Origin: Sycon ciliatum
Lineage: Eukaryota > Porifera > Calcarea > Leucosolenida > Sycettidae
NCBI RefSeq assembly: GCF_964019385.1
Contig: NC_088646.1
Location: 5,538,233 to 5,602,232, forward strand
Length of the DNA: 64,000 bases
Direction of reading: 5' to 3'
Shown: piece after piece, positions 17,170 through 48,076 of the stretch
Position numbering within the stretch: the first letter of the stretch is position 1
Layout: the number at the start of each line of letters is the position of its first letter
Notes under the pieces: generated by a model
The model's input: only the letters and a program-made list of their open reading frames with translations
Databases searched by the model: none
What the model was told of the DNA's origin: nothing
Program-made: the position numbers and the translations under genes

Positions 17170-17200
17170 CAAGAGTGCATAAACAGTTTATGGACTCTTG
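17170..17200. mobile_element. Micro-palindrome, CAAGAGT family, 31 bp
   Basis: CAAGAGTGCATAAAC and its mirror, ending TGGACTCTTG, flanked by exact 7-bp CCTATAT on both sides (17163-17169, 17201-17207). Copy E of the host repeat has the empty site CCCTATATCAATATG, proving a clean insertion. Confidence 0.9.
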
Positions 17201-17538
17201 CCTATATCAATATGGAAATGATGGCCTTCACATCAATACCGTATTATACGCGCATGATGTGCAAGCCTTTTCTTGCAGAAAATGGCACTAGCATAATGCA
17301 TGTTCTTCGGCAGGGAAACATGTGAGTCGTGGTCTGGTGGTGGTGATACTTTTTTTATACGGAGGTCATTCTGTGCATGTTGCAACTTGCTGTTGCAGAA
17401 TTTCATGACTCTGTCATAAAATTGTCTTGACTTTCAGATATTTCAGATTTCCCCACCCTCGATCAGATTTATTTGAGAAATGTAGCCAGGTGCGTGTCGC
17501 AGATGTTTTTGTTGATTCTGTGTTCATAATGGTTTATA

Positions 17539-17835
17539 CCGTATATTCTCTATTATAAGCGCCGTGCTTATATATTTTCAACACCCCTCTACCCCGTGCT
17601 TATATTGGAGACCGCGCTTATATTGGAGACCGTGCTTATATTTTTTTCAACCAATACATCCATAGAGAGCAAGAAGAAATACATGCTGGATATCATGCAT
17701 GCAGCATTGATTTCCACCAAGACCGTGCTAATAATAGAGACTGTGCTTATAATGTTTCGAAAGGTGCTCACAGTGTGCTAGTATTAGAGACTGTGCTAGT
17801 AATGGAGACCTGTGCTTATAATAGAGAATATACGG
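17539..17835. mobile_element. TA-flanked MITE with CCGTATATTCTC ends
   Basis: The terminal inverted repeat CCGTATATTCTCTATTATAA is flanked by TA on both sides. Copies C and E of the host repeat lack it (TTTATAATCATGG-type empty site in E). The interior is a loose tandem of GAGACCGTGCTTATAT-like units. A second copy is at 47652-47972. The TA duplication fits Tc1/mariner-type mobilisation by inference. Confidence 0.8.
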
Positions 17836-18333
17836 TAATCATGGGTTATCGTGATAAGGTCATCCTGCATCATATTGCACTGAAATGGTAATCCTGTTGA
17901 TGCCGATACAACTTTTGGAAGTAGTTCAATGACTTTAAACTGTTAGTCCACGATTTTCTAAAACAACACAGCAAAGGAGGAACAATAAACATGTATTAAA
18001 ATGTAAACGAATACATTGCTGAGTCCAAAACCTCGTTCCAACAACTACACTGATCCTGAGGAGAAAAGGGGCAAGGCTATGGTTGGAGGTACTCAGAGAT
18101 AAACAAGGCACTCCACAATAATAAAATCTGACACATCTTTTGGTGAGTATGAATGATATCCAGTCGAACCTCTTTAGGACGAACACCAAGGGACCGATGG
18201 TATTTATTCTGTGATCTTAACCTATTTTATAACCAGAGAATACAATAGACATACGAATAGATTTCTTCTACAGCGAAAGATTCTAAGCCACACAGACTCA
18301 TTGACTCGTCTCGTATGAAACAATTGAGTCACT

Positions 18334-18601
18334 AGAGAGATTCTGCAAAACGAAAATGCGTACAAACTTTCGCTCTACATCATGAAGTGCGAAACTTCGC
18401 ACCTTTGGACGCGAAACTTGCAGGGAACGCGAAATAAACTGTCGTAGGAAAGTTCGTGAGATCGGGTCATGGCGTACGTGCACTTGGCCCGCGCAAACTA
18501 CGAAAATGTGCAGAACGCAAAGTTCGTGCAAAAATTCGCACACACTTTCGCAAGGACTGTCGCGAAACTTCGTTCGAATTTTCGTTTTGCAGAACCTCTC
18601 T
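18334..18601. mobile_element. MITE with AGAGAGRTTCTGC ends, in copy A
   Basis: The inverted termini AGAGAGATTCTGCAAAACG are flanked by ACT on both sides (3-bp duplication). The interior is rich in CGAA/TTCG words. The same insertion sits at the same site in copies C, D and E but is absent from copy B (GAGTCACTGAACC at about 24005). Confidence 0.85.
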
Positions 18602-19793
18602 ACTGAACCTTTCTCTAGCAACATGACGGCAACTGAAACAGCAACAGAGAAAGTACGATACATGTACTCCACATTCTTACAGGTACTACAAACAGATTGC
18701 AGATCGTAATTCTTGCTTTGGCGGCACGAAACATTATTTGGGGCAGTGCAATCTCGGCAGTACTCACAAATCAAACAGCCCAGACTTGAGTAAACAAATC
18801 CAATCATAAAAGTACGAGATTTTCACGAGACGAGACTGCACCCATTGGCTTGTTTCGTATGAAACAAACAAGTTACTAAACCTCTCCACAATAGAGATTT
18901 CCCCTGATATGCGAATTTATTTTGCAAACTCGGTCAATTGGTACTTGAACCTTTCCCTCCAGATTCGGAACTGCCAACGATAGTATGCCACTGACCAGTG
19001 CCTTACTTGTAACGTACCAATGTACAATGAATATGAGTATTTCGACAACACATCTAACATAAGCCTTACCGTCAAGAAGTTGAATTCGCGTTCTTCGCAC
19101 ACTGTAGACAAGGGCAAAGAGATAAAAATGGATCTAAATCCGAATAAAATCAGCACACGTTTCCGTAAATGAAAGGTGAACATAAGCAAATGAATCGAAG
19201 GAAACCGGTCAACTTAGAGATCACCTGTCATCGTCTCATCGAGTACCGGTTCCGTAAAAGGAGGCCTCGCAGCTCGGCAGCAGAAAAGCAAAATTTAGAA
19301 AAGAGATCCTGTCAACTTTTCCATTATTTATTGCATTCCGCCCCCAAATCAGCACACTTTTCCTGAATGAAAGAGTCAACACAAGCAAATGAATGAAAGG
19401 CAACTGGTCAACTCACCTGTCATTGAGTAATATTCCGCTAAAGGAGGTCTCAGCAGCGCCGAAACGAAAATAATCATTAGACGAAATATCCGAAACAGCT
19501 CATGCAAGAAGCAGTTCCAAAGAAGGAAGTTCCTCGCGCATGCACATCCGAACACACGGATCCGCGGACTGCATGCACTGAACACAATGTCTGCCGTGCA
19601 CGCGCACAGCACACGGCTACCACGCGTTGGTAGATCTATTACCGAGCACCTTACGTAGAGACTTACGTAGCCTAAGTGAAATACCGAGCACCTTACGTAG
19701 AAACTTACGTAGCATAGCGATGTCGTTTTTTCTGCCATGTGAACACAATAATAGAAAAGCTGACAGGATCGCTTTTCTAAATGTAGTAGAAAC

Positions 19794-21045
19794 TTAGATC
19801 AGTTTCTCCAGTTGCAAGAACTGGATAGCTTCTGATGGTTGTGTGAGAATTGCCTCCCTGACTGACGTGAAGGTACATAGACGTGTACCTGCTCGACTGC
19901 TGTGTCTGGCAGGGCAAGCTAGCAGGAGGTGGGCAGCATCATCAACTGTTCCAGGACAGTGAGCGCAATCAGGTGAAGGTGCCGCCTCAATCTGGAACAA
20001 GTACTTGTTCAGCAGGCTGCAGTGGCCAGTGAGGAGCTGATTGAGGATGGTGGTCTCATGCCGGGACGGAGGGCTGCGGAACTTGCTGGTGTTGAGTAAT
20101 GGCCGGGGGTATGCGGTTGCAGACCGAATTGAAGCCTTGGCAGCTTGGATAGGTAGCTTAACCTGGGCCTGTACACACTGTGTTCCATTCCGGGCAAGGC
20201 GATCCGCCTTGTCATTGAGAGCAACACCGCAGTGGCTGCTGATCCAGACAAGGTTTATGGAATGAGCCTTCCGAGCAACCTCTGTCAGAGCATCGAACGC
20301 AGCAATGGTGTCTGGGCTGATCCTGTATGGGTCTCCACGGAGGGCATCTACGAGGGAGAGGCTGTCAGTGACCAGCACAACGTCCGTCTCCATGGTGGTA
20401 AGGTCGTAGACTGCTCTCAGGCCAGCTGCTGCTGCCGCTACTTCGGCAGTGAAGGATGTTGCGACAGCGCCAGCTGGTAGACACCCAGACAGTATCTCTG
20501 ACCGCTGGGTTGCAGTGGTTTCCATGACAAGAAAACCACCTCCACCAGCGTTGGTGTCAGGGACACTGCCATCTGTCCAAATGTCTAGACGCCGCGAGGA
20601 ACAACAGGAGCGATAGGCTTCCTCCAGGCATACTAGTGCCTCTACAAGTCGTACAGTAGGAGGGTCAGACCGGGTGCAAGCGGACTTGAACACAGATAGG
20701 TTCGGAACGGAGGACCAGGGTGGAGGACGGGATGGCAGAGGTGCAAGGGATGGTGGAAGATGCCGCTCTGCCATTTGTCTCCATGTCTCCTTGGTTTTGC
20801 GGATCCGAACAGGGGTATGTTGACTGCAACACGGCACTAGCTGGTGTAGGAGCACTATGACGCTTCGCGATATTAGCTAGGCCGCCTGGCGCTCGACTTT
20901 CAGCTGGATAGTTGGTGCACCAGCTATTTCACGGAGTTGATTCGTAGGTGTTGTCTTCGTGCACCCAGTGGAGAGGCGGAGGCAGCTATTGTAGGCAACA
21001 TCAAGATGATGCTGACCTTGCTTGGTGGCAAGACCATACAAATAC
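19794..21045 (-). pseudogene. 5'-truncated LINE with RNase H domain
   Basis: Reading on the minus strand, about 45 residues of reverse-transcriptase thumb/connection (LDVAYNSCLRLSTGC) are followed by one in-frame TAG at 20877-20879. An open frame then runs to the stop at 19794. The latter has the RNase H signature in order: TDGSVPD, ..TAEVAAAAAG, VLVTDSLSLVDAL, SSHCGVALNDKADRLA (D, E, D, H/D), then a C..C..H zinc-like tail. RNase H downstream of RT is typical of I-, Tad- and Jockey-related LINE groups. The 5' end is lost and the 3' UTR is cut by copy A. It is a recent relic, with only one inactivating stop seen. Confidence 0.8.
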
Positions 21046-21183
21046 AACGTACATGTACATGATTGTAGTTCCCATTTCCAGTGTACACTCTGGATTGACA
21101 CTCAGTGTCAAATTCAGGAACGGTCGATGCTCCTGGTGTTGTTGTCGGAGTGTGTGATGGTGAATCGTCGGTACAGGTATTGG

Positions 21184-21332
21184 CAAGAGTATAATAACTC
21201 CCCAAGAGTGTGCAACTCCTGATACCCTTTCTATGGGGTACGCCAACGGCGAAAACTCACATCACGTGGTGCATTGTCTCAGTTTTACGTTTCCAGCCCG
21301 TTTTTAGCGAGCAGGTTATAATTATACTCTTG
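21184..21332. mobile_element. CAAGAGT-family element, 149 bp
   Basis: The ends CAAGAGTATAATAAC and TTATAATTATACTCTTG are flanked by exact 7-bp GTATTGG (21177-21183, 21333-21339). The second block, AAGAGTGTGCAACTCCTGAT, is shared with the element at 37705. It carries extra internal sequence but no coding capacity. Confidence 0.85.
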
Positions 21333-21689
21333 GTATTGGTTGTTGAGATGGGCAACAAACCGGCCCAGAGCCACAAGTCCACGTCGCCACAGCATGATTA
21401 TATCATCGATGTAGCGCTTGAAAATGCAGGCGTTGGCGGATGTACATGTACATGTATGTGCTTGTCCTGGAAGTGGAGTTGGAAAGTGCTAAGGAAATGT
21501 ACAGTCTACACTGGAATATGCAAGCAATGCTTATGTACACAGTCTGCGACAACATGAATGATTCTCTCACCCGCATCTCTCCCCGTTCATTGCGCACTGT
21601 ATTTGGCTACCCACCCACCGCAGATGTCCAGTGTATTCTGTCTCGAAACAACCTCACACCCATCCTTTTCTGCCTTCGTGCCAATTCTG

Positions 21690-21895
21690 AGGCACGTAGC
21701 CGCACCTGCACAAGGTCTCAAGTCTCGCTTGGACTTGTACTGTCACGAGCCTCCTCTCGGTTTGGTTATTCCTCTCTTTCTTATTTAGCCGCTGACCACT
21801 GGAACTCAGTTCCGGCATCGGTCCGCCTTGCTGCTTCACCAAGTCAATTTCGTATCGCAATCCTAGATTGGCTAGGGTACCCCGTAAGGAGACCA
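21690..21895 (+). pseudogene. LINE reverse-transcriptase C-terminal fragment
   Basis: An open plus-strand stretch carries the pattern SSRFGYSSLSYLAADHWNSV and then PASVRLA, which resembles the conserved C-terminal WN.LP..R motif of CR1/L2-group proteins. No catalytic part is present. It is cut downstream by the AT-rich foldback element at about 21925. Confidence 0.5.
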
Positions 21896-21929
21896 TATAG
21901 GTCTGTGGGGACTGCCCTAGAGAAATATG

Positions 21930-22575
21930 TATCTATTATTGCACGATTAAAGAGGTCTATATATGAAATATAGAACGAGTAAAAGACCGAGGTCCCCCGA
22001 GGTCTTTTACGAGGTCTATATTTCATATATTGACCGATTATGAGGGCAATAATAGATTTATCACGACATAGCATACCTAAAACTGTTTTTGCTTTGCTAT
22101 AGGAAGAAAGGAATACTATTGTAATAGTAGAATAGTATGTACATGTACATATGCCGTGTACATTGGACATTACTTCTGTGTAAACCAAAGTTTCCAGTTG
22201 TCTCTTGTAGTATATTCCCCAAGTTCTTTGACTGAGAATCTGACAGTTTGGGTTCAAATCCCAGCATTTGGCTTCAGATTTTCTTCTTTCAGTTCTGATT
22301 TTTTTCTAAGTTGAGGAAAAAGTTCTAAGTCCTCGGGCTAAGTGGTAAATAATAAGTGGTCAATATAAGCAGTCAATATATGCTGATATTTGACCGCTTA
22401 GAGATCACAAGTTTCTGTGGGGGTCAATAATAAGAGAGTGATAAGAATATTTATCACTCTCTTATTATTGACCCCCACAGAAACTTGTGATCTCTAAGCG
22501 GTCAAATATCAGCATTTAGAATCAACTCGTAAAAACTCCAAGTCAATCTCCCATTGACACAAACCTCGTTTATTC
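21930..22575 (+). mobile_element. AT-rich foldback element Q, copy 1
   Basis: It begins GTATCTATTATTGCACG and contains hairpins around GAGTAAAAGACCGAGGTCCC (21975-22030) and a 60-bp-arm hairpin at 22383-22517 (TGATATTTGACCGCTTAGAG). A tRNA-like B box, GGTTCAAATCC, is at about 22251. Other copies are 29597-30579 (+) and 30966-31460 (-). Confidence 0.7.
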
Positions 22576-22584
22576 AACATAATT

Positions 22585-23268
22585 ATAGCAATAAAAACTG
22601 CTTTATGGCAGTTTTCTAAAAAAAGTTATTGTGTTCTAGTCCATGGACCCCGTCTAAAAAGTAAGAAATTAACGAAATGTGATAGCCGAAAATTAAAATT
22701 TCACACAAAACCTCACAATAATCACGACACTTGAAGATCTTATAGTACGGCACTTGTTTATTCCGACACTTGTACTTGTACAAGTACATGGACTGCGCCA
22801 ACATGCTTGCATGTGAAAGAGGACCACGAGGGGAAAAGGTCGTCTCGCATCCTGTGTGTGATTATTGTGAGGTTTTGTGTGAAATTTTAATTTTCGGCTA
22901 TCACATTTCGTTAATTTCTTACTTTTTAGACGGGGTCCATGGACTAGAACACAATAACTTTTTTTAGAAAACTGCCATAAAGCAGTTTTTATTGCTATAA
23001 TTTCTTTTGTTTTTTTGGCTCAAGGATATTATTATTATTATTATTTTATTTATTTTACTAGGGTGTTTCCCACAGACCTATGGTCTTCTTACGGGAGCCC
23101 CTATGTACTACATGTACGTGTATCATATCAAATTCAATACCGTATTATACGCATTGATGTGCAAGCCTTTTCTTGCGGAAAATGGAACTAGTCTTGCGTA
23201 TGATGACAGATGTACACTGTATTCAGGTTCTTCTGCCGGGGAATCATATGGGTAGTGCAGTGGCGGTG

Positions 23269-23307
<39 letters not shown>

Positions 23308-25587
23308 TCTTTATTAGGATGACCCGATACCTTTTTTATACGCAGGTCATTCTGTGGATGTTGCAGAATTTCATGACTCTGTCATAAAATTGTCTTGTCT
23401 TTCAGAAAATTCAGATGTCCACACCCTAAATCACATTTACATGAGAATTGTAACCAGGTGCGTGCCGCAGATGTTTTTGTTGATTCTGTGTTTATAATTG
23501 TAGTCATGGGTTGTCGTGATAAGGTCATCCGGCATCATATTGTAGTGAAATCGTAATCCTGTTGATGTCGATAACACTTTTGGAAGCAGTTCAATGACTT
23601 CAAAGTGTTACAAGTCCACGATTGTCTAAAACAACACAGCAAAGTAGGAACAATAAACATGTATTAAAATGTAAACAAATACATTGCTGAGTCCGACACC
23701 TTGTTCCAACAACTACACTGATCCTGAGGATATAAGGGGCAAGGATATATGGTTGGAGGTACTGAGAGATAAACAAGGCACTCCATAATAATAAAATGTT
23801 ACACGACTTTGGGGGAGTATGAATGATATCCAGTCAAACCCCCTTAGGACGAACATGAAGGGACCGATGGCATTTGCTCTGTGAGTTTGTCTTAACCCTA
23901 TTTTATAACGAGTGAATACAATTATTTCTCCAATAGAGACACGAATAGATTTCTTCTAAAGCGAAAGATTCTAAGCCAGACCAAACCATTGACTCGTCTT
24001 TTATGAAACAAATGAGTCACTGAACCTTTCTTTAGGAACATGACGGCAACTGAAACAACAACAGAGAAAATACGATACATGTACAGCACATTCTTGCAGG
24101 TACAACAAACAGATTGCAGATCGTAATTCTTGCTCTACCGGCACGCAACTTTATTTGGGGCAGTGCAATCTCAGCGCTACTCACAAATCAAACAGCCCAG
24201 ACTCGAGTAAACAAATCCAATCGTACGAGATTTTCACGAGACGAGACTGCACCCAGTAGGGAGGTTCTGCTCTACGTTTTGGGAACGCGACGCAAAGAAT
24301 CACGCGAACTTTCTTCGCGTTCCCGTAACGTAAAGAAATGCTGTTCTGCTCTACGTTTCACCTAGAGAAGTCACGTGGAATGTGTACTGGGAATTTTCCC
24401 TTCCATTTGGCAGTTTTCTGCATGCAGTTGATCGATACCCAGCAAATTTTCTCTGCGTGTGCCACAACGTAGAGAACCCCATCTCCGCGTAGAAATCTGG
24501 AGCCAAAACACGCGAAGCCGTAGACTCTAACCCAGACACCTGCTCTCTACGTGATTTCTCTACGTTTCACGTATAGCAGAACCTCCCTATTGGCTTGTTT
24601 CGTATGAAGCAAACAAGTCACTGAATGCATGAACCTCTCCATAATGGAGATTTTCCCTGATATGCGAATTTATCTTGCATACTAGTCCTGGGCCAATGCG
24701 TCCTTGAACCTTCCCCTACAGATTGGGAACTGCCAACGATGCTATGCCACTGCAAAATTCAGATTCTACCCTATGATCGGGGCACGGAATGCCGGAAGCA
24801 ATCATGACCAGTGCCTTACTTGTAACGTACCAATGTACAATGAACATGAGTATTTCGACAACACATCTAAGCCTCAGCAGCAACATACAATGTAAGCCTT
24901 ACCGTCAAGAAGGTGAACTCGCGTTCTTCGCACACTGTTGGCAAGGGCAAAGAGATACGAATGGATCTAAATCCGAATAAAATCAGCACACGTTTCCGTA
25001 AATGAAAGGGTGAGCATAAGCAAATGAATCGAAGGAAACTGGTCAACTCAGAGATCACTTGTCATTGAGTATTCCGTAAAAGGAGGCCTCGACAGCAGAA
25101 AAGCTAAATTTAGAAAAGAGATCCTGTCAGCTTTTCCATTATTTATTGTATTCCACCTAAAATCAGCACACTTTTCGTAAATGAAAGAGTCAACACAAGC
25201 AAATGAATCAAAGGGAACTGGTCAACTCACCTGTCATTGAGTAATATTCCGTGAAAAGAGGTCTCAGCAGAGCCGAAGCGAAATAAGCCAGGACACGAAA
25301 TATCCGAAACAGCTCATGCAAGAAGCAGTTCCAAAGAAGGAAGTTCCTCGCGCATGCACATTCGAAAACGGACTGCATTGCATGCAACACAATGTCTGCC
25401 GTGCACGTGCACAGCACGCGGCTACCACCCGTTGGTAGATCTAATACCGAGCACCTTACGTAGAAACTTACGTAGCCTAAGTGAAGTACCGAGCACCTTA
25501 CGTAGAAACTTACGTAGCATAGCGGTGTCGTTTTTTCTGCCATGTGAACACAATAATAGAAAAGCTGACAGGATCGCTTTTCTAAAT
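22585..25587 (+). mobile_element. Hairpin-capped 3-kb element, copy B
   Basis: Same architecture as copy A: a palindromic cap at 22585-22998, internal inverted terminal hairpin at about 25108, right end CTTTTCTAAAT at 25587. It lacks the AGAGAGG insertion found in copies A, C, D and E at about 24010 and instead has a related element at 24258-24588. A (TAA)n array lies at 23267-23308. Confidence 0.85.
24258..24588. mobile_element. MITE with AGGGAGGTTCTGC ends, in copy B
   Basis: Inverted ends AGGGAGGTTCTGCTCTACG, flanked by AGT on the left and ATT on the right (empty site in copies A and C: CTGCACCCATTGGC). Relative of the AGAGAGG elements but with a different body. Confidence 0.75.
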
Positions 25588-26009
25588 CATATCCTATCCA
25601 ATAAAAACAGTTCATAAAAGCAGTTCATAAAAACAGCTTTTTAGGATCGGACCCAGTCCGCATAACCAAGAGAGCTAGCTCCCTTGGCTGCTGTTGGAAT
25701 ATGCAAGAATGGGCCTTCCAGATAAGGTCTAACAAGGAGCAGTGGCTATAGTTATGAAATGAACACCGGTAACCATGGAGACAGACCACACTCTCATTAT
25801 AGATACTGGTTATAAATAGACCGAATAAGGAAAATGATCTGATAGCCTATGAAGACTAAAAGAAATTGAACCAATGACAACAAATACTCGTCCAGCACAC
25901 GGGTTGTCATAGCAACACAAATAACAGCTGTCCGCTAATTTTGTTGTTGGAGATTGAGTAGGAGTTTTTACTGGTTGATTCTAAATACAATAAATGCTCC
26001 GGCCTTGGG
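25588..26009. other. Intervening sequence between copy B and the nested hAT
   Basis: No coding region. Words near 25603-25660 (AAAAACAG, AGCAGTTCATAAA) resemble degraded terminal hairpins. From about 25960 it matches the end of element Q in inverted orientation (GAGTTTTTAC..GTTGATTCTAAATAC). Confidence 0.4.
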
Positions 26010-26090
26010 TTTATGACTAGGGCTCAAACGGTCACGGTTTTACCCCTGACGATTAACTGCTAAGCTAACGGTCGGTTAACCGGTTATAAC

Positions 26091-26446
26091 CAAGAGTCCA
26101 TAACCCAAGAGTATGCAACTGTGATCTCTTTTCTATGGGCCAGATGCGCGGCGCGCTGCCTTCATTACATCATTCAGCTGTAGTCCGCGCACTGCGGAAA
26201 ATCAAACACCGCACTTTCCCTCCAGTTTGAAATGAACTTTCGTACGGAACTGGAGTTCACGCGCCAGAATTCAGAGATCGTGTAGGTACTGGAACGAATC
26301 GAACAAAAACGGATGGGCTCGTGCGAGAAATTGAGAGTTTGAATGCATACTTTCAGAGCGTGATGAAGGCAAGTTACGTAATGAAGGCAGCGCGCCACGC
26401 ATGCAGGCATAATCACAGTTGCATACTCTTGGGTTATGGACTCTTG
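26091..26446. mobile_element. CAAGAGT-family element, 356 bp
   Basis: Ends CAAGAGTCCATAACCCAAGA and the mirror ending GGTTATGGACTCTTG, flanked by exact 7-bp TTATAAC (26084-26090, 26447-26453). The arms extend over 35 bp (AGTATGCAACTGTGATC). The largest undisturbed member here; no coding capacity. Confidence 0.9.
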
Positions 26447-26577
26447 TTATAACCTATAAGCCACGGCAATCCTGCGGACTCTTTTTTAACCGTATATTTG
26501 ACTATACTCATTCAAAAAATGTACCCTGTTCAGTACAACGCGCACTTGTGCATTCTCTTGCATGCTCATTCATACAT

Positions 26578-29324
26578 ATAGCAATAAAAACTGCTTCATG
26601 GCAGTTTTCTAAAAAAAGTTATTGTGTTCTAGTCCATGGCCCCCGTCTAAAAAGTAAGAAATTAACGAAATGTGATAGCCGAAAATTAAAATTTCACACA
26701 AAACCTCACAATAATCACAACACTTGAAATGCTGCTTTCAACACGAAACTTGTACTGCACCAACAATTGGCAACATGCAGTCATGCATGCATAGGAAAGA
26801 GGATCACGAGGGGAAAAGGTCTTCTACATGTAGCTTTTCATTCTGTGTGTGATTATTGTGAGGTTTTGTGTGAAATTTTAATTTTCGGCTATCACATTTC
26901 GTTAATTTCTTACTTTTTAGACGGGGGCCATGGACTAGAACACAATAACTTTTTTTAGAAAACTGCCATGAAGCAGTTTTTATTGCTATAATTTCTTTTG
27001 TTTTTTTCTGTCAGTGTCACCAATCAATGGAATGCCCTATATCTATTCAAAATTTAATAATAATAATAAATGATGGCCTTCACATCATATCAATACCGTA
27101 TTATACGCAGTGATGTGCAAGCCTTTTCTTGTAGAAAATGGCACTAGCATGTTCTGCTGCGAGGAAACATGTGAATAGTGGTGGACCGTGGTTATACTTT
27201 TTTATACGGAGGTCATTCTGTGCATGACTGCATGTTGCTGTAGCAGAATTTCATTTATTTAAGATTTCCCCACCCTCGATCAGATTAATTTGAGAAATGT
27301 AACCAGGTGCGTGTCGCAGATGTTTTTGTTGATTCTGTGTGTATAATGGTTTATAATAACGGGTTATCGTGATAAGGTCATCCTGCATCATATTGCACTG
27401 AAATCGTAATCCTGTTGATGTCGATACAACTTTTGGAAGTAGTTCAATGACTTCAAACTGTTAGTCCACGATTTTCTAAAACAACACAGCAAAGGAGGAA
27501 CAATAAACATGTATTAAAATGTGAACAAATACATTGTCGAGTCCGACACCTCGTTCCAACAACTACACTGATCCTGAGGATAAAAGGGGCAAGGCTATGG
27601 TTGGAGGTACTGAGAAATAACAAGGCACTACATAATAATAAAATCTTACACATCTTTTGGTGAGCATGAATGATATCCAGTCGAACCTCTTTAGGACGAA
27701 CACCAAGGGACCGATGGTATTTATTCTGTGAGTTTGTCTTAACCTATTTTATAACCAGTGAATACAATTATTTCTCCAATAGACATACGAATAGATTTCT
27801 TCTACAGCGAAAGATTTTAAGCCACAACAACTCATTGACTCGTCTCGTATGAAACAAATGAGTCACTAGAGAGGTTTTGCAAAACGAAAATGCGTACAAA
27901 CTTTCGTTCTACGTCATGAAGTGCGAAACTTCGCACGAACTTTCTCAACTTTGGACGCGAAACTTGCAGAGAACGCGAAATGAACTGTTGTACACATTTT
28001 CGTGAGATCGGGTCATGGCGTACGTGCACTTGGCCCGCGCAAACCACGAACATGTGCAGAACGCAAAGTTTGTGCAAAAATTCGTACACACTTTCGCAAG
28101 GACTGTCGCGAAACTTCGTTCGAATTTTCGTTTTGCAGAACCTCTCTACTGAACCCTTCTTTAGCAACATGAGGGCAACTGAAACAACATCAGAGAAAGT
28201 ACGATACATGTACAGCACATTCTTCCAGGCACTACAAACAGATTGCAGATCGTAATTCTTGCTTTTGGCGGCACGAAACTTTATTTTGGGCAGTGCAATC
28301 TCGGCGGTACTCACAAATAATAAATCAAACAGCCCAGACTCGAGTAAACAAATCCAGTCATACAAGTACGATATCTTCACGAGATGAGACTGCACCCATT
28401 GGCTTGTTTCGTATGAAACAAACAAGTCTACTGAACCTCTCCACAATGGAGATTTTCCCTGATACGCGAATTTATTTTGCAAACTCGGTCAATGGGTCCT
28501 TGAACCTTTCCCTCCAGATCGGGAACTGCCAACGATAGTATGACCAGTGCCTTACTTGTAACATACCAATGTACATGTACAATGAATGTGAGAATTTCGA
28601 CAACACATCTAACATAAGCCTTACCATCAAGAAGGTGAACTCGCGTTCTTCGCACACTGTAGACAAGGGCAAAGAGATAAAAATGGATCTAAATCCAAAT
28701 AAAATCAGCACACGTTTCCGTACATGAAAGGGTGAGCATAAGCAAAATTAATGAATCGAAGGAAATCGGTCAACTCAGAGATCACCTGTCATCGAGTATT
28801 CCGTAAAAGGAGACCTCGGCAGCGGAAAAAGCTAAATTTAGAAAAGAGATCCTGTCAGCTTTTCCATTATTTATTGCATTCCGCCCAAAATCAGCACACT
28901 TTTCGTAAATGAAAGAGTCAACACAAGCAAATGAATCAAAGGAAACTGGTCAACTCACCTGTCATTGAGTAATATTCCGCGAAAGGAGGTCTCAGCAGCG
29001 CCGAAACGAAATAAGCCAGGCCAGGAGACGAAATATCCGAAACAGCTCATACAAGAAGCAGTTCCAAAGGAGGAAGTTCCTCGCGCATGCACATCCGAAC
29101 ACGGACTGCACTGCAAGCATGCAACACAATGTCTGCCGTGCACGTGCACAGCACGCGGCTACCACCCGTTGGTAGATCTAATACCGAGCACCTTACGTAG
29201 AGACTTACGTAGCCTAAGTGAAATACCGAGCACCTTACGTAGAAACTTACGTAGCATAGCGGTGTCGTTTTTCTTGCCATGTGAACACAATAATAGAAAA
29301 GCTGACGGGATCGCTTTTCTAAAA
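26578..29324 (+). mobile_element. Hairpin-capped 3-kb element, copy C
   Basis: Left palindromic cap at 26578-26989, right end CTTTTCTAAAAT at about 29324. It is inserted in the hAT element. It carries the shared AGAGAGG MITE and the tandem CACCTTACGTAG motif (about 29185-29260). Confidence 0.85.
27868..28147. mobile_element. MITE with AGAGAGGTTTTGC ends, in copy C
   Basis: Same site and same family as 18334-18601, flanked by ACT on both sides. Confidence 0.85.
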
Positions 29325-37111: not shown

Positions 37112-37113
37112 TA

Positions 37114-37442: not shown

Positions 37443-37470
37443 TGAAGTAAGCCTCTTGAGTCTTGTACGG

Positions 37471-37704: not shown

Positions 37705-38007
37705 CAAGAGTACATAACCCCCCAGAGTGTGCAACGCCTGATCCAGCTCTGCATAGGGTCTTGGCCGAGCGGAATCGGATCTTTGCGTCATAATACCGTA
37801 CACATCTGAGGGGAACCCGGGGAGTCGCGGGTACTCTTGCAGTCTTGGATCAAAAACAATGGTGCCCTGCCTCGAGACCAGCCTTGCGCGGGTGTGAAGT
37901 GTACGCATGACATCAGAAGATCCGATTCCGCTCGACCAAGACCCTATGCAGAGCTGGATCGGCGTTGCACACTCTGGGGGGGGGGGGGGGGGGGTTATGT
38001 ACTCTTG
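37705..38007. mobile_element. CAAGAGT-family element, 303 bp
   Basis: Ends CAAGAGTACATAACCCCCCA and the mirror ending GGTTATGTACTCTTG, flanked by exact 7-bp GTATAGG (37698-37704, 38008-38014). Long inner arms AGAGTGTGCAACGCCTGATC and AGCTCTGCATAGGGTCTTGG are mirrored at the right. A G run of about 17 sits in the right arm. Confidence 0.9.
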
Positions 38008-38039
38008 GTATAGGGGTGGTGGTCGGGGACGTGGTGGAT

Positions 38040-38104: not shown

Positions 38105-38847
38105 CGCTTGTGAGTTTCAGCTCCTTCAGCTTGTGAGTTTCAGGTCCATCTGCTTCTCATGGATGGGATGATCCTTGGTCCATGATCTTTCGCTTCCTCA
38201 AAATTATCAGAAAAGTTCGGCAACTCGTCAACTCCTTTTTTTAGTACCGCTACATGTAGAACAGAAAGTGGAAAACTGATCGCGATGTTTGCCACTTATT
38301 TCAGCTCTTTTATGCTCTTTCGCTTATTCACAACTATCGTAAAATTTCATCTCCACTCACGACAACAAGAACTTGAGTTGAAAACTGACCACGATGTGTA
38401 GACACTTTTCATGTTGCCGTTTTCGGACAGGCTGTTTCCAGGTACCAGAGCATGTTCACAGTCGAATGTGAGGTGCGAACTGAGCTGACAACGAAAAACT
38501 GCCACAGACCCCTGCAGAGCTAGGCTGACAGAGTACGGGGTGCCATTGACGACGGGCTTTATTGCTACCGTATTTTTTCCGTATCCATTGACCACGGGCT
38601 TTATCAGCTCATCAAGGCCACCGCGGGAACGTCGCTCATTGGCTACAACCATAGAAACGGTACGGTAAAAACCTGAACTTGCGTTCACTGTACTTGAATA
38701 CTTTCATCTCAAAAGTGGAAAGTCCTGACCAAACAAATCTGTTTGTGATGGACATTGCACACAATGTGACATTGCGGCATGTTGCCATTGCCAAGGCTTT
38801 TTTTTCTCTTTGAACATCTCCATATATGTGGGCCTTATCTGAACCGC
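38105..38847. other. Non-coding stretch
   Basis: Two related blocks with TTTCGCTT..CTCAAAATTATCAG (about 38188) and TTTCGCTTATTCACAACTAT (about 38318). No gene supported. Confidence 0.4.
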
Positions 38848-39041
38848 AATCCTACACAGTTGCATCGGGCATGACGCTCTGATCAGGCCCTCGGTCATGT
38901 GAGTGATCTTGCCCGCGGTCGCGACGCCCTCGGGGCTACGCCCCTTGGGCGTCGCGACCTCGGGCGTCGCGACCTCGGGCAAGATCACTCACAGACCTCG
39001 GGCCTGATCAGAGCGTCATGCCCTCGCAACTGTGTAGGATT
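38848..39041. repeat. GC-rich 194-bp hairpin
   Basis: Arms AATCCTACACAGTTGC, GCATGACGCTCTGATCAGGC and GTGAGTGATCTTGCC are mirrored at the right. The centre is a tandem of GGCGTCGCGACCTC. It lies 19 bp from the start of copy D. Confidence 0.8.
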
Positions 39042-40157
39042 ATGTATCTCTTGACCTTTTATTTAGAAAAGCGATCCTGTCAGCTTTTCTATTATTGTGT
39101 TCACATGGCAGAAAAAACGACATCGCTATGCTACGTAAGTTTCTACGTAAGGTGCTCGGTATTTCACTTAGGCTACGTAAGTCTCTACGTAAGGTGCTCG
39201 GTATTAGATCTACCAACGCGTGGTAGCCGTGTGCTGTGCACGTGCACGGCAGACATTGTGTTCAGTGCATGCAGTCCGCGGATCCGTGTTCGGATGTGCA
39301 TGCGCGAGGAACTTCCTTCTTTGGAACTGCTTCTTGCATGAGCTGTTTCGGATATTTCGTCTCATGGCCTGGTGTATTTCGTTTCGGCGCTGCTGAGACC
39401 TCCTTTCGCGGAATATTACTCAATGACAAGTGAGTTGACCAGTTGCCTTTGATTCATTTGCTTGTGTTGACTCTTTCATTCAGGGAAAGTGTGCCGATTT
39501 TGGGGCGGAATGCAATAAATAATGGAAAAGTTGACAGGATCTCTTTTCTAAATTTTGCTTTTCTGCTGCCGAGCTGCGAGGCCTCCTTTTACGGAATACT
39601 CGATGACAGGTGATCTTAGTTGACCGGTTTCCTTCGATTCATTTGCTTATGTTCACCTTTCATTTACGGAAACGTGTGCTGATTTTATTCGGATTTAGAT
39701 CCATTTTTATCTCTTTGCCCTTGTCTACAGTGTGCGAAGAACGCGAGTACAACTTCTTGACGGTAAAGCTTATGTTAGATATATAGATGTGTTGTCGTAA
39801 TACTCATGTTCATTGTACATTGGTACGTTACAAGTAAGGCACTGGTCAGTGGCATACTATCGTTGGCAGTTCCCAATCTGGAGGGAAAGGTTCAAGTACC
39901 AATTGACAGAGTTTGCAAAATAAATTCGCTTATCAGGGGAAATCTCTATTGTGGAGAGGTTCAGTAACTTGTTTGTTTCGTACGAAACAAGCCAATGGGT
40001 GCAGTCTCGTCTCGTGAAAATCTCGTACTTGTATGATTGGATTTGTTTACTCAAGTCTGGGCTGTTTGATTTGTGAGTACCACCGAGATTGCACTGCCTC
40101 AAATAAAGTTTCGTGCCGCCAAAGCAAGAATTACGATCTGCAATCTGTTTGTAGTAC

Positions 40158-40191
40158 CAAGAGTCCATAACCCATGGGTTATGGACTCTTG
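40158..40191. mobile_element. Micro-palindrome, CAAGAGT family, 34 bp
   Basis: CAAGAGTCCATAACCCA and its exact mirror: a perfect 34-bp palindrome, flanked by exact 7-bp GTAGTAC (40151-40157, 40192-40198). Copies A and C lack it (copy A, at about 18681: GGTACTACAAACAG on the other strand). Confidence 0.95.
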
Positions 40192-40277
40192 GTAGTACCT
40201 GTAAGAATGTGGAGTACATGTATCGTACTCTCTGTTGCTGTTTCAGTTGCCGTCATGTTGCAAAAGAAAGGTTAAGT

Positions 40278-40545
40278 AGAGAGGTTCTGCAAAACGAAAA
40301 TTCGAACGAAGTTTCGCGACAGTCCTTGCGAAAGTGTGTGCGAATATTTGCACGAACTTTGCGTTCTGCACATTTTCGTAGTTTGCGCGGGCCAAGTGCA
40401 CTTACGCCATGACCCGATCTCACGAAATTTCCTAGGGCAGTTCATTTCGCGTTCCCTGCAAGTTTCGCGTCCAAAGGTGCGAAATTTCGCATTTCATGAT
40501 GTAGAGCTAAAGTTTGTACGCATTTTCGTTTTGCAGAATCTCTCT
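40278..40545. mobile_element. MITE with AGAGAGGTTCTGC ends, in copy D
   Basis: Same site as in copies A, C and E, flanked by AGT (ACT on the other strand) on both sides. Confidence 0.85.
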
Positions 40546-41350
40546 AGTGACTCATTTGTTTCATACGAGACGAGTCAATGAGTCAGTGTGGCTTAGAGTC
40601 TTTCGCTGTAGAAGAAATCTATTCGTATGTCTATTGGAGATATAATTGTATTCTCTGGTTATAAAATAGGTTAAGCTCACAGAATAAATACCATCGGTCC
40701 CTTGGTGTTCATCCTAAAGAGGTTCAACTGGATATCATTCATACTCACCAAAAGATGTGTAAGATTTTATTATTGTGGAGTGCCTTGTTTATCTCTCAGT
40801 ACCTCCAACCATAGCCTTGCCCCTTTTATCCTCAGGATCAGTGTAGTTGTTGGAACGAGGTGTCGGACTCAGCAATGTATTAGTTTACATTTTAATACAT
40901 GTTTATTGTTCCTCCTTTGCTGTGTTGTTTTAGACAGTCGTGGACTAACAGTTTGAAGTCATTGAACTACTTCCAAAAGTTGTATTGACATCAACAGGAT
41001 TACGATTTCAGTTTCAATATGATGCTGGATGACCTTATCACGATAACCCATGACTATAAACCATTATGAACACAGAATCAACAAAAACATCTGCGACACG
41101 CGCATGGCTACATTTCTCAAATAAATCTGATTGAGGGTGGAGAAATCTGAAATATCTGAAAGGCAAGACAATTTTATGACAGAGTCATGAAATTCTGCAA
41201 CAGCAACATGCACAGAATGACCTCCGTTTAAAAAAAGTATCACCACCACTGCTCACATGTTTCCCCGCAGAAGAACATGCATTATGCTAGTGCCATTTTC
41301 TGCAAGAAAAGGCTTGCACATCAATGCGTATAATATGGTATTGGTATGAT

Positions 41351-41370
41351 CAAGAGTACATAAACTCTTG
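41351..41370. mobile_element. Micro-palindrome, CAAGAGT family, 20 bp
   Basis: The shortest member: CAAGAGTACATAAACTCTTG, flanked by exact 7-bp GTATGAT (41344-41350, 41371-41377). Copy C has the empty site (inverted, CACATCATATCAATACC). Copy E has a remnant at the same site (45734). Confidence 0.9.
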
Positions 41371-41694
41371 GTATGATGTGAAGGCCATCATTTACATATT
41401 GATATAGGGCATTCCTTTGATTGGTGACAGAAAAAACAAAAGAAATTATAGCAATAAAAACTGCTTTATGGCAGTTTTCTAAAAAAAGTTATTGTGTTCT
41501 AGTCCATGGACCCCGTCTAAAAAGTAAGAAATTAACGAAATGTGATAGCTGAAAATTAAAATTTCACACAAAACCTCACAATAATCACACACAGAATGAA
41601 AAGCTACATGCAGAAGACCTTTTCCCCTCGCGATCCTCTTTCCTATGCATGCATTTTGCCAATTGTTGGTGCAGTACAAGTTTAGTGTTGAAAG

Positions 41695-41721
41695 CAGGGA
41701 GTAGTATTGTACTACTCCCTG
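41695..41721. mobile_element. Micro-palindrome, CAGGGAGT family, 27 bp
   Basis: CAGGGAGTAGTATTGT and mirror, flanked by exact 8-bp GTTGAAAG (41687-41694, 41722-41729). Copy E has the empty site GTGTTGAAAGCAGCATTTC at about 46075. CAGGG ends and 8-bp duplication are hAT-like. Confidence 0.9.
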
Positions 41722-42541
41722 GTTGAAAGCAGCATATCAAGTGTTGTGATTATTGTGAGGTTTTGTGTGAAATTTTAATTTTCAGCTATCACATTTCGTT
41801 AATTTCTTACTTTTTAGACGGGGTCCATGGACTAGAACACAATAACTTTTTTTAGAAAACTGCCATAAAGCAGTTTTTATTGCTATATTTAGAAAAGCGA
41901 TCCTGTCAGCTTTTCTATTATTGTGTTCACATGGCAAGAAAAACGACACCGCTATGCTACGTAAGTTTCTACGTAAGGTGCTCGGTATTTCACTTAGGCT
42001 ACGTAAGTCTCTACGTAAGGTGCTCGGTATTAGATCTACCAACGGGTGGTAGCCGAGTGCGGTGCACGTGCCCGGCAGACATTGTGTTGCATGCAGTGCA
42101 GTCCGTGTTCGAACGTTCGGATGTGCATGCGCGAGGAACTTCCTTCTTTGGAACTGCTTCTTGTATGAGCTGTTTTGGATATTTCGTCTCCTGGCCTGGC
42201 TTATTTCGTTTCGGCGCTGCTGAGACCTCCTTTCGCGGAATATTACTCAATGACAGGTGAGTTGACCAGTTCCCTTTGATTCATTTCCTTGTGTTGACTC
42301 TTTCATTTACGAAAAGTGTGCTGATTTTGGGCGGAATGCACTAAAATTAATAATGGAAAAGCTGACAGGATCTCTTTGTTTCCTTCGATTCATTTTAATA
42401 TTATATATATATATATTTGCTTATGCTCACCCTTTCATTTACGGAAACGTGTGCTGATTTTATTCGGATTTACATGTAGATCCATTTTTATCTCTTTGCC
42501 CTTGTCTACAGTGTGCGAAGAACGCGAGTTCACCTTCTTAA

Positions 42542-43402
42542 AGGGGAAGTATACCCTAAAATAAAATTTTCACCAGTTGTAGTCTTCTGGGTGCTGAGTC
42601 GAATGGTCTTGGTCCGAGGAAGCTGAGACGCTCCCTTCCTCCTTTATTCCCAATCGAACTCTCGCACTTCCACCGAAACTGGGTGACTGCGCCCTACTAG
42701 ATGGAGATTTGTATGCAAAATGTCACTAAAAGCGCCATTTCGTTCTTATAAAAGCACGGATAACCGCGATTGGCCCATATGTTGTAGTCTTTGGGACGCT
42801 GAGTCGACTGGTTTTGGTCCGAAAAGGCTGCGATGCAGCGTTCCTCCTTTATTCCCAATCGAACATGGTTGAACAAGCGGTCACGTGCACCTGCGTACAC
42901 CTGTCACCTGGTCACCGTGCCTGCAGGGTACAACTTACTAGCCTGTTTGACCTTTTTTGGGTGCAGTCCTGTCACTCGGGTTGAACTCGAGTTGAACCTT
43001 GGTGTGAAAGTTGTCGCCTGCTGGCGCGGTGACCAGGTGATTTGGGCACCCAGGAGCACGTGACCGCCTTTTCGACCATGTTCGATTGGGAATAAAGGAG
43101 GAACGCTGCATCGCAGCCTTTTCGGACCAAAACCAGTCGACTCAGCGTCCCAAAGACTACAACATATGGGCCAGTCGCGGTCATCCGTGCTTTTATAAGA
43201 ACGAAATGGCGCTTTTAGTGACATTTTGCATACAAATCCCCATCTAGTAGGGCGCAGCCACCCAGTTTCGGTGGAAGTGCGCGAGTTCGATTGGGATTCA
43301 AGTAGGAAGGGAGCGTCTCAGCTTCCTCGGACCAAGACCATTCGACTCAGCACCCAGAAGACTACAACTGGTGAAATTTTGATTTTAGGGTATACTTCCC
43401 CT
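42542..43402. mobile_element. Long foldback element with TTAA duplication
   Basis: Arms of about 410 bp start AGGGGAAGTATACCCTAAAA and are mirrored at the right end, flanked by TTAA on both sides (42538-42541, 43403-43406). Copies C and D show the empty region (CTTCTTGACGGTAA). The arms contain two repeated blocks (GGAAGCTGAGACGC and AAAGGCTGCGATGC versions of one motif). TTAA duplication fits piggyBac- or Kolobok-type mobilisation (inference). No coding capacity. Confidence 0.85.
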
Positions 43403-43423
43403 TTAACGGTAAGGCTTATGTTA

Positions 43424-44187
43424 GGGTTGGTTCACATATCGCCGGTACGCGCCGGGAGTCACCGGCGGTGGGCTTCTTGCAACCTCTCCCGGCGCATTGC
43501 GATTGTGTGAACCCGTGCAGTCGTAACAAAATCATACGGTAAAATATCGCAAGAGACCGCCGGCAAAGTTGGACAGTGCCCAACTCTTGCGATCTGCCCC
43601 TGCGCCGATCCTGTACAATTTTGACCAAAAGTGGTTTGTGAACCGTTCGCGCCGGCTGCCGGGAGCCAGACTTTGTCAAAATATCAAACCAATACTTGTC
43701 CTAATTTTTCCTAAATTGAAGCTAGAGAGGAGGTCCGTTCGCTATTCTTGTAGTCGCTTCAAGCTGGCAAATAAGTCAGCATACCAGCCCGTCCTTCTCG
43801 GATGATCTGCTTGACCATTGTGCAACTTATGAGACAAATACAATTGAAACAAATAAAAAATATGATGGATACATTGGCAAGTCCTTGTGACTTCCCCAAC
43901 GTTTGCAAGCATAATTTCGACACCATCGCTTACTAGACTGCAATAAAATGTGTAGAAGTATTTTCATGATCTCCAGTAAAAGGTAGCACCGAGTGGCCAT
44001 CACCGAAAGACCTTGAACTACTGAAGAAACATAGAATTCAAGCTTCAATTGGCAAACCTGTCGTAGCATTTGGGCACATTCTGTACTATTGTAGTAGATT
44101 TGGTACTCGAACCGTATGCGCAACGGATCGGGAGCTGGCTCACCGCCGATGTCTTGCGGTGCCGATTTTGCTTATGTGAACCAACCC
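43424..44187. mobile_element. MITE with GGGTTGGTTCACATA ends, 764 bp
   Basis: Inverted ends GGGTTGGTTCACATA and complement, flanked by TTA on both sides (43421-43423, 44188-44190). Copy A has the empty site (AACACATCTAACATAAGC on the other strand). A TTA duplication is typical of PIF/Harbinger (inference). The interior has GCGCCGGGAG..GCCGGC blocks and a lone TACGGTAAAATATCGC end. Confidence 0.85.
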
Positions 44188-44657
44188 TTAGATGTGTTGT
44201 CGAAATACTCGTATTCATTGTACATTGGTACGTTACAAGTAAGGCACTGGTCAGTGGCATACTATCGTTGGCAGTTCCCAATCTGGAGGGAAAGGTTCAA
44301 GGACCCATTGACCGAGTTTGCAAAATATATTCGCATATCAGGGAAAATCGCCATTGTGGAGGGGATCAGTAACTTGTTTGCTTCATACGAAACAAGCCAA
44401 TGGGTGCAGTCTCGTCTCGTGAAGATCTTGTACTTGTATGATTGGATTTGTTTACTCAAGTCTGGGCTGTTTGATTTATTATTTGTGAGTACCGCCGAGA
44501 TTGCACTGCCCCAAAATAAAGTTTCGTGCCGCCAAAGCAAGAATTATGATCTGCAATCTGTTTGTAGTACATGTACCTACAAGAATGTGCTGTACATGTA
44601 TCGTACTTTCTCTGTTGCTGTTTCAGTTGCCGTCATGTTTCTAAAGAAAGGTTCAGT

Positions 44658-44919
44658 AGAGAGGTTCTGCAAAACGAAAATTCGAACGAAGTTTCGCGAC
44701 AGTCCTTGCGAAAGTGTGTACGAATTTTTGCACGAATTTTGCGTTCTGCACATTTTCGTAGTTTGCGCGGGCCAAGTGCACGTACGCCATGACCCGATCT
44801 CACGAATTTTCCTACGACAGTTCATTTCGCGTCCAAAGTTGCGAAAGTTCGTGCGAAGTTTAGCACTTCATGACATAGAACGAAAGTTTGTACGCATTTT
44901 CGTTTTGCAGAACCTCTCT
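44658..44919. mobile_element. MITE with AGAGAGGTTCTGC ends, in copy E
   Basis: Same site as in copies A, C and D; flanks AGT and GGT (one change). Confidence 0.8.
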
Positions 44920-46241
44920 GGTGACTCATTTGTTTCATATGAGACGAGTCAATGATTTGGTGTGGCTTAGAATCATCTTTCGCTGTAGAAGAAATCTATT
45001 CGTATGTCTATTGGAGAAATAATTGTATTCACTGGTTATAAATAGGTTAAGACAAACTCACAGAATAAATACCATCGGTCCCTTGGTGTTCGTCCTAAAG
45101 AGGTTCGACTGGATATCATTCATACTCACCAAAAGATGTGTAAGATTTTATTATTATGGAGTGCCTTGTTTATCTCTCAGTACCTCCAACCATTGCCTTG
45201 CCCCTTTTATCCTCAGGATCAGTGTAGTTGTTGGAAGGAGGTGTCGGACTCAGCAATGTATTTGTTTACATTTTAATACATGTTTATTGTTCCTCTTTTG
45301 CTGTGTTGTTTTAGAAAATCGTGGACTAACAGTTTGAAGTCATTGAACTACTTCCAAAAGTTGTATCGACATCAACAGGATTACGATTTCAGTGCAATAT
45401 GATGCAGGATGACCTTATCACGAAAACCCATGATTATAAACCATTATAAACACAGAATCAACAAAAACATCTGCGACACGCACCTGGTTACATTTCTCAA
45501 ATAAATCTGATCGAGGGTGGGGAGATTTGAATTATCTGAAAGGCAAGACAATTTTATGACAGAGTCATGAAATTCTGCTAGAGCAACATGCACAGAATGA
45601 CCTCCGTATAAAAAATGTATCACCACTGTCCACCACTACGTACTACTCACATGTTTCCCCGCAGAAGAACATGCATTTTGCCATTTTCTGCAAGAAAAGG
45701 CTTGCACATCAATGCGTATAATACGGTATTGATCTCTTGATATGATGTGAAGGCCATCATTTAGTTTAAATTTACATATTGATATAGGGCATTCCATTGA
45801 TTGGTGACAGAAAAAAACAAAAGAAATTATAGCAATAAAAACTGCTTTATGGCAGTTTTCTAAAAAAGGTTATTGTGTTCTAGTCCATGGACCCCGTCTA
45901 AAAAGTAAGAAATTAACGAAATGTGATAGCCGAAAATTAAAATTTCACACAAAACCTCACAATAATCACACACAGAATGAAAAGCTACATGTAGAAGACC
46001 TTTTCCCCTCGTGATCCTCTTTCCTATGCATGCATGACATGCATGTTGCCAATTGTTGGTGCAGTACAAGTTTAGTGTTGAAAGCAGCATTTCAAGTGTT
46101 GTGATTATTGTGAGGTTTTGTGTGAAATTTGAATTTTCGGCTATCACATTTCGTTAATTTCTTACTTTTTAGACGGGGTCCATGGACTAGAACACAATAA
46201 CCTTTTTTAGAAAACTGCCATAAAGCAGTTTTTATTGCTAT

Positions 46242-47280
46242 AATTTGGTCGGTGTACGAGATGCACGAACAGTTTTCGTAGGGTGAGTACTTTTCATGTA
46301 GCACTGAATGCGGCAAGTAGGACTCGCCCACCCGCCCCTCCCCACCTGAAGCGTCGAGGAGCTAGGAGGTAGGGGCGCTCTGGCGGGATTTTACGGTATT
46401 TTTTGGGGATCGACGCAACTGCGTTCTCAATACAATTACCAAGGTACAGCTATACCAAAAACAAGATGCTGCCTTTCTTTTCAATCCAGTCAAGGTTTGA
46501 GAGCAATGGAGCTCGGGAGACAAGTTGCATTTTAGTAGTTGGACTAGAAAAATGACGAAGATTGCACTGTTATAATACATAGTCATTAAATTTTGGTTCA
46601 AAGTAAGGGCCATACTTCAAGTCACGGCGAGATACCACGTCATTATGGAGGCTGGTGCTGACTTCCTTGTCATTGGATCGGCGTGGAACTTTCAACGGTT
46701 TGGGATCCTTGCTGAACACTGTCCGTGCAGGCAGTAACCACATTGTACATATCGTCGGACATTGGCACCAGTGAGTAAAGAAGTGCATTTCGTTGTATCA
46801 AGACTCTTCGTTGTATCACTATCGGCCACTATGCAATCAGAAGAACGTTGATCTTGTTATTATTATAGGCATACTGGATTTGTAGCAGCATCTACGTTTT
46901 AGATTGTTCTTGTGGTAATCGTACTGGATACAGTGTCATGATAATCATTGCAGGTCGCATCTTTCATCCATATCTTATCTACATCACACATGGATTGCTG
47001 AGCTCTTCAGTCTTCTTCTTTCACACTGTGGAATATTCGGCTCACTTTCACGTCTTGTACTTTTCGTGTTGTTACGGTATCTCTCCTTGCAATTATAATT
47101 AGAAATTTTCACTCGGATGGTGATACTTTGTGTAGTTTTCGAGTTTACAAAGAGTGAATGAGAACAGATGCACTTCGAAGTCTCCTTTGTGTCGTAGTGC
47201 TGAGTTGAATAGTGATTGGAGTTCGTTGTTTGTTTGTGTGGAATCTGGTTTTGGACGTTGTCGCGGAGGTAAGTTCTCTC
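46242..47280. other. Non-coding stretch
   Basis: Contains a lone MITE end at about 46372-46396 (GCGGGATTTTACGGTA). No gene supported. Confidence 0.4.
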
Positions 47281-47427
47281 CGTTCACTTTTACTGTACCG
47301 ACGGTGCACTCTGCATTGGCATGCTCCCACCCTCTCACGGTTCTGTGTAGTGCATTTTGTCGCTGGGTAGAGGGGGCGGGGACATGCCAATGCAGGGTGC
47401 ACCGTAGGTACGGTAAAAGTGAACCCA
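47281..47427. mobile_element. Small MITE with GTTCACTTTTAC ends
   Basis: Arms of about 45 bp (GTTCACTTTTACTGTACC, then GGTGCACTCTGCATTGGC) are mirrored at the right with few mismatches. AGGTAA words flank both sides (about 47269 and 47429), a possible target duplication. Confidence 0.6.
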
Positions 47428-47651
47428 GGTAATAATGAATATCATCCCGCGCGGGATTGTATTGGCTATTATTTCCCGGTCAGCAAGTCTCCTGATTGGC
47501 TGAAACAGGCCTATAGTACCGTACCATGGGAAAATATTATGAAATGACCCAAAGGCAATGTGCCTATCGAGGGGTTCATTTGACATCGTTGTGCCCGCGC
47601 TTGATGAGCCCACCCTTCATGCAATCAAGAGTACATAACCCCGGGGGGTTA

Positions 47652-47972
47652 CCTTATATTCTCTATTATAAGCGCCATGCTTATATTTTTTCAACACCCC
47701 CCTACTTATTGGAGACAGCGCTTATATTGGAGACCGTGCTTATATTTTTTCAACCAATACATCCGTACAGAGCAAGAAGAAATACATGCTAGATATCATC
47801 AAGAGTGCATAAACCGGTTTATGTACTCTTGATATCATGCATCCCGCATTGATTTCCACCAAGACCGTGCTTATAATGTTTCGAAAGGTGCTCACAGTGT
47901 GCTACATGTAGTATTAGAGACTGTGCTAGCTAGTAGTAATGGAGACCTGTGCTTATAATAGAGAATATACCG
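47652..47972. mobile_element. TA-flanked MITE (copy 2), inside the palindrome
   Basis: Ends CCTTATATTCTCTATTATAA and TTATAATAGAGAATATACCG, with TA on both sides. Same family as 17539-17835. It itself contains the micro-palindrome at 47800. Confidence 0.8.
47800..47831. mobile_element. Micro-palindrome, CAAGAGT family, 32 bp
   Basis: CAAGAGTGCATAAACC and its mirror ending TATGTACTCTTG, flanked by exact 7-bp ATATCAT (47793-47799, 47832-47838). The sister MITE at 17539 has the empty site GGATATCATGCATG (about 17688). Confidence 0.95.
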
Positions 47973-48076
47973 TATGTACTCTTGATGCAATCCAGACGAT
48001 GCTGTACGAAGGGAGAAAGCAGCTCCACAGCCATTGCAATCGCAAATAATATAACTGTACATGTTCTCGTACAATC

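Follow-up and report, generated by a model that had tools for sequence, protein, structure and literature searches.

Insertions with CAAGAGT ends in the window

The window analyzed here is a 64-kb stretch of the Sycon ciliatum genome (contig NC_088646.1, positions 5,538,233 to 5,602,232), in which eight insertions begin CAAGAGT, end ACTCTTG, and are flanked by exact 7-bp direct repeats that differ in sequence from site to site. All eight (8/8) lie where the original prediction placed them. Several are bare end-to-end palindromes, and we are confident that such palindromes, of 20 to 40 bp, are donor-site excision scars of P-superfamily transposons and not mobile elements. The insertions, including miniature inverted-repeat transposable elements (MITEs), are as follows; all are unstranded, sites read on the opposite strand are marked rc (reverse complement), and L numbers denote fetched loci.

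17170 to 17200: 31-bp putative scar; duplication CCTATAT; empty site at 41461-41370 (rc).
21184 to 21332: 149-bp insertion with variant ends (CAAGAGTATAATAA), a short non-autonomous element; duplication GTATTGG.
26091 to 26446: 356-bp MITE with end CAAGAGTCCATAACCCAAGAGTATGCAAC; duplication TTATAAC; empty site at L023:5764-5883 (99% identity).
37705 to 38007: 303-bp MITE with left end CAAGAGTACATAACCCCCCAGAGTGTGCAAC; duplication GTATAGG.
40158 to 40191: 34-bp putative scar, 17 + 17 nt of both ends; duplication GTAGTAC; four empty sites, at 18740-18621 (rc) and three others.
41351 to 41370: 20-bp putative scar, 13-14 nt of one end and 6-7 of the other; duplication GTATGAT; empty site at 27143-27015 (rc).
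47626 to 47984: 36-bp putative scar split by a TA-flanked MITE; duplication ATGCAAT.
47652 to 47972: 321-bp TA-flanked MITE within that 36-bp scar; sister copy at 17539-17833.
47800 to 47831: 32-bp putative scar inside the TA-flanked MITE; duplication ATATCAT; sister MITE copy empty here (17636-17774).

Empty sites, in which a related copy has the single 7-mer without the insert, were found for five of the eight insertions, where at least four had been predicted; none was found for those at 21184, 37705, and 47626 in the window and the fetched loci that were compared. Two repeat positions occur in several states. At the first, that of 17170, a sister copy has no insert and L061 has a different 34-bp scar, and that of 41351, in alignments judged by eye, has three states: the scar, the empty copy, and a copy (45679-45816) with only CTCTTG. 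The insertion at 47626-47984 had been taken for a long family member and has to be reclassified, as it is really a 36-bp palindrome interrupted by the TA-flanked MITE. We judge this MITE to be of the Tc1/mariner type from its TA duplication; its ends and those of its sister copy read C(C/G)(T/G)TATATTCTCTATTATAAGC. The 13-mer CAAGAGTNCATAA, used in the genome searches, is absent from some window ends: 21184-21332 matches only in CAAGAGT/ACTCTTG, the right end of 41351-41370 is shortened relative to the 13-mer, and 47972-47984 has one mismatch to it.

Abundance of the end and sizes of the insertions

The genome (538 Mb, 313 contigs) was searched for this 13-mer, with the reversed end pattern as control. 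It contains 16,767 copies of the end (8,806 + 7,961) versus 136 of the control (77 + 59). Pairs of exact 13-mers in inward orientation were counted in four bins of inner gap, and there are 1,559 pairs at 0 to 30 bp, 116 at 31 to 61 bp, 33 at 92 to 122 bp, and 464 at 270 to 300 bp, with no control pairs in any of the four. Such excesses are not due to chance. The ends constitute one family, as had been proposed, and the size distribution is bimodal, comprising bare palindromes and short full elements, with few pairs in either of the intermediate bins counted. Among 19 printed sequences (of the 116) in the 31- to 61-bp bin, 11 are two palindromes in tandem, eight of them spaced by exactly 7 nt. 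The search pattern requires 13 nt at each end, so that shorter scars are missed, and palindromes of 19 to 23 bp, below its reach, are present in the fetched loci.

These sizes bear on the suggestion that long members collapse after insertion, through slippage during replication or a deletion at the hairpin. The ends of the members are indeed inverted repeats, and palindromes are well known to undergo deletion, but collapse predicts a continuum of sizes and there is instead a trough (116 and 33 pairs versus 1,559 and 464).

Anatomy of the micro-palindromes

We read the anatomy of the palindromes from the first 50 listed, all of which lie on contig C1 and are hence not a random sample. They comprise 44 distinct sequences, with variable centers. 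Measured against five end types taken or inferred from full elements, 98 of the 100 scar ends extend no deeper than 21 nt. Twenty junctions are without filler, ten have 1 to 3 nt, and 20 have more, part of it apparently copied from the ends. Collapse of longer members would permit any retained length rather than a ceiling, and filler in 30 of 50 junctions also speaks against it, as does a second family with another end sequence (described below) that points to a similar ceiling (mode 38 bp; 1,224 palindromes versus 11 in the next gap bin). We thus consider collapse highly improbable.

The flanking duplications are exact throughout the window, as originally described, but less perfect genome-wide: in the first 40 listed palindromes with flanks, 19 are exact, 10 differ at one position, and 11 differ at two or more. 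We note that L044, L051, L059, and L077 appear by eye to carry at least two tandem scars with one common 7-bp duplication. At L050:1-122, the scar is flanked by inverted rather than direct repeats over ~14 bp (by eye).

Sequence recurrence addresses whether the palindromes could be micro-MITEs, themselves moved by a P-type transposase. Four sequences recur among the 40 fetched palindromes. The two with filler each sit at copies of a single site (L056/L073, with L063 related, and L074/L075), and the two without filler are at unrelated sites (a 34-mer at L049, L059, and L061 and a 32-mer at L047 and L064). Identical sequences at unrelated sites are what mobility would produce, as is the preferred length of 38 bp in the second family (30 of 50 listed palindromes), but the simplest joins are expected to arise afresh repeatedly, and a self-complementary CCGG tip could yield the 38-bp peak. 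Mobility is also at odds with the predominance of distinct sequences (44/50) and with the restriction of both repeated filler-bearing sequences to copied sites. Moreover, for deleted P elements in flies the required end sequences are 138 and 216 bp long, and although it is argued that ~100 bp may suffice in Anopheles, this is far above 17 (extracts of PMC1562414). It is therefore very unlikely that the palindromes are mobile units; of the earlier proposal, the part that stands is that a transposase lies behind the bare end-to-end palindromes.

A P-type transposase beside the end

The search for a longer relative with these ends and a transposase gene was productive. The Pfam profile PF21787 (P-type RNase H domain) matches 44 loci in the genome, and the 5' flanks of eight of these were read. 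Three (L085, L087, and L088) have the exact CAAGAGTNCATAA end outside the open reading frame (ORF) and directed into it; L082 has a close variant (CAAGAGTATATAA), L086 the end CAAGAGTGTGCAA, and L083 an end similar to that of the second family, and no recognizable end was seen in the 5' flanks of L081 and L084. The L085, L087, and L088 proteins are ~50% identical to each other, and all three score above the PF21787 cut-off. Four copies of the L085 lineage are present, three with an open frame of 839 aa and one with 683 aa, and in all four the end falls no more than 1 bp from where it is expected, with flanks that differ. An opposite end lies 6,000 and 5,912 bp away for two of the four copies, among the first 100 of 117 places listed. 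Judging from the predicted P/THAP9-type RNase H transposase that adjoins the end, the transposons bearing CAAGAGT belong to the P superfamily. Elements sharing the end are of 280 to 356 bp, 3.1 kb, and ~6 kb, the last as defined by two ends.

The 3.1-kb element (L021:1386-4480) is a 3,095-bp derivative of the L085 lineage with an exact duplication, GTCACAC. Its two ends have ~33 to 35 bp in common, and the inverted arms of the short MITEs are longer. Eight open-frame fragments of L021 have no significant Pfam match (one chance match, E 0.26), as L021 is a derivative and carries a nested insert. This insert (~1580-3810) has, by eye, a decayed THAP-like start (MPKRCYAPECTS), with no Pfam match. 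Where one might look for a THAP domain, L082:1371-2999 and L083 (near 2423 of the reverse complement, minus strand) have C2H2-like fingers.

The CA...TG ends and short duplications might instead indicate a hAT-type family, and the duplications show nTnnnAn, one base short of the hAT pattern. However, the end borders P-type transposases, and hAT excision leaves little of the ends, such that a hAT affiliation is scarcely credible. Of 150 hAT loci that were scored, the top 20, at 3.2 kb each, all lack the exact end, and on one side L001 and L020 match it with a single mismatch. The duplication is 7 bp, not 8 bp, and hAT membership was rejected on this count too.

The target was derived from 34 sites with exact duplications, the eight in the window and 26 picked for exactness. 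The consensus of the duplications is RTANTAY, with T at -2 and A at +10, and 20 of the 34 are within two mismatches of GTANTAC, versus ~4% of random 7-mers from the window. The symmetry extends past the duplication, with 3.09 of 7 pairs complementary, compared with 1.71 in random window stretches.

Proposed origin of the scars

The scars could arise as follows. An element would insert with duplication of 7 bp, and the transposase would later cut one strand, the transferred one, at the tip of the element and its partner ~17 to 19 nt inside. As the element leaves, the donor would retain both duplications and a single-stranded 3' tail at each end, and end joining (by microhomology, blunt, or with filler) would seal the tails into a near-palindrome, which would itself be immobile. 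Some 7-bp copies would apparently be hit again, giving tandem scars with a common duplication. P transposase is described as cutting one strand 17 nt inside the element (extract of PMC7776569), and a stagger of this size means that excision leaves both duplications and at most 17 nt of each end. In repaired fly P donor sites, remnants of both ends, neither longer than 17 nt, meet at microhomology or filler and are bordered on the outside by the two duplications (extract of PMC2895639); the Sycon palindromes are laid out likewise. The filler is suggestive of a theta-type pathway for the join.

Several observations weigh against excision scars of P-type elements. No site was found where one copy is scarred and another has the full element. 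The stagger of ~17 to 19 nt is read from the scars only, with C-rich ends that blur the count, and two of the 100 scar ends are deeper, at 24 and 25 nt (24 and 28 with an alternative end-type set). The 11 of 40 palindromes whose flanking 7-mers have two or more mismatches are without a clean duplication; a displaced copy is seen by eye in four (L041, L052, L058, and L059), and none in seven (L050, L053, L055, L060, L065, L069, and L072). The boundary of the 6-kb copies is set by their ends and not by a read duplication. Pfam recognizes only the N-terminal RNase H domain (TNP-like_RNaseH_N) in the three proteins, with no match to a GTP-binding insertion domain. Among solved structures, phmmer with the 839-aa ORF minus its first 14 residues retrieved no P transposase, and the sole match of a three-protein profile is an acyl carrier protein (E 0.76). 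A THAP spacing pattern has one match, C2H2-finger-like and in L083, among nine loci (L021 and L081-L088; the 3' parts L089-L091 lie outside the scan), each element having been read only in part.

A second family with 8-bp duplications

Two further palindromes in the window, also unstranded, have related ends and 8-bp duplications.

41695 to 41721: 27-bp CAGGGAGTAGTA... palindrome, a related third end type; duplication gttgaaag.
48077 to 48115: 39-bp palindrome of the second family (CAGGGAGTCGTAAAATACC ends); duplication gtacaatc.

Further CAGGGAG-ended palindromes with 8-bp duplications are at L035:563-600, L023:4362-4393, and L031:7074-7119; sites were selected for flanking 8-bp repeats that differ at no more than one position, and one of the five, including both in the window, has a mismatch. 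We interpret the CAGGGAG-ended palindromes as a second and, perhaps, a third family of scars. The second family has CAGGGAGTCGTMAAATACC ends and likewise forms bare palindromes, with 1,224 genome-wide at a gap of 0 to 30 bp and 11 at 31 to 61 bp; the length is 38 bp in 30 of 50 listed. A similar end, CAGGGAGCCCTACACATACCGG, is upstream of all four copies of a 983-aa P-type ORF, and by resemblance the CAGGGAGTCGTMAAATACC and CAGGGAGCCCTACACATACCGG ends probably belong in one clade. Opposite ends are 7,392 bp away on contig C14 and 7,643 bp away on C12, and the opposite-end candidates for the copies on C9 and C3 are ambiguous, with a 40-bp palindrome nearby; the search pattern for the ends of this ORF itself favors the 40-bp form. 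Annealing of the two 3' tails to each other at the inner-edge CCGG could produce joins of 38 or 40 bp.

Elsewhere in the window, 56706-60736 contains two long open frames that by eye resemble those of a non-long-terminal-repeat retrotransposon.

Relation to known P-type systems

The excision junctions of Drosophila P{wa} are similar in that the duplication is followed by no more than 17 nt of either end, with microhomology or templated filler at the junction, and a join at the self-complementary tip (AT) recurs, with 14 isolates in one table (extract of PMC2895639). They differ in being experimental, at one site, and with an 8-bp duplication, whereas the Sycon palindromes are natural, are at many sites, and have 7-bp (or 8-bp) duplications and other ends. 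Galileo, a P-superfamily element of Drosophila, resembles the CAAGAGT family in its 7-bp duplications, GTANTAC consensus, and palindromic target, but it has unusually long, internally repetitive ends, in contrast to the ~33 to 35 bp common to the ends of the 3.1-kb Sycon copy; the extracts of the Galileo literature (PMC2775673 and PMC4168063) mention no such scars. Zebrafish Pdre2/THAP9 also has a P-type transposase, with Pdre2 ends that begin CA, and accounts of Anopheles P-MITEs, as far as the extracts go, establish that short derivatives of P-type elements exist; both have 8-bp duplications, and the Pdre2 end sequence is different. The statement that no named family has this end and a 7-bp duplication thus holds in part: 7-bp duplications are known from Galileo, and no named family with this end sequence was found. 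Open-access literature on genome-wide natural excision footprints yielded no P-type scar paper by title or opening of the abstract, and nothing useful was found on 7-bp P-type MITEs in molluscs.

Implications

The mechanism is already known, and what is new to us is the family, with this end and a 7-bp duplication, its abundance, and the apparent tandem re-use of targets. On balance, we lean toward viewing the ~2,780 scar-like palindromes (1,559 + 1,224) of the two families in this one assembly as a natural archive of germline repair after P-type excision, which we do not claim to be unpublished. In this archive, the tip of the 3' tail would dictate the scar, with the self-complementary CCGG tip giving mostly 38-bp joins and the C-rich tip giving diverse junctions with theta-like filler, and 7-bp targets would be re-used in insertion-excision cycles that yield tandem scars sharing duplications.

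The CAAGAGT elements add a P-type transposon lineage with 7-bp duplications besides Galileo. Bare palindromes (1,559) exceed the single short-element size class counted (464, gap 270 to 300 bp), so that the "micro-MITEs" counted in genomes can represent departures. Provided that the scar model is true, each scar is one germline break with long 3' tails together with its joining, and end-joining spectra and transposon turnover would be readable from an assembly without experiment.

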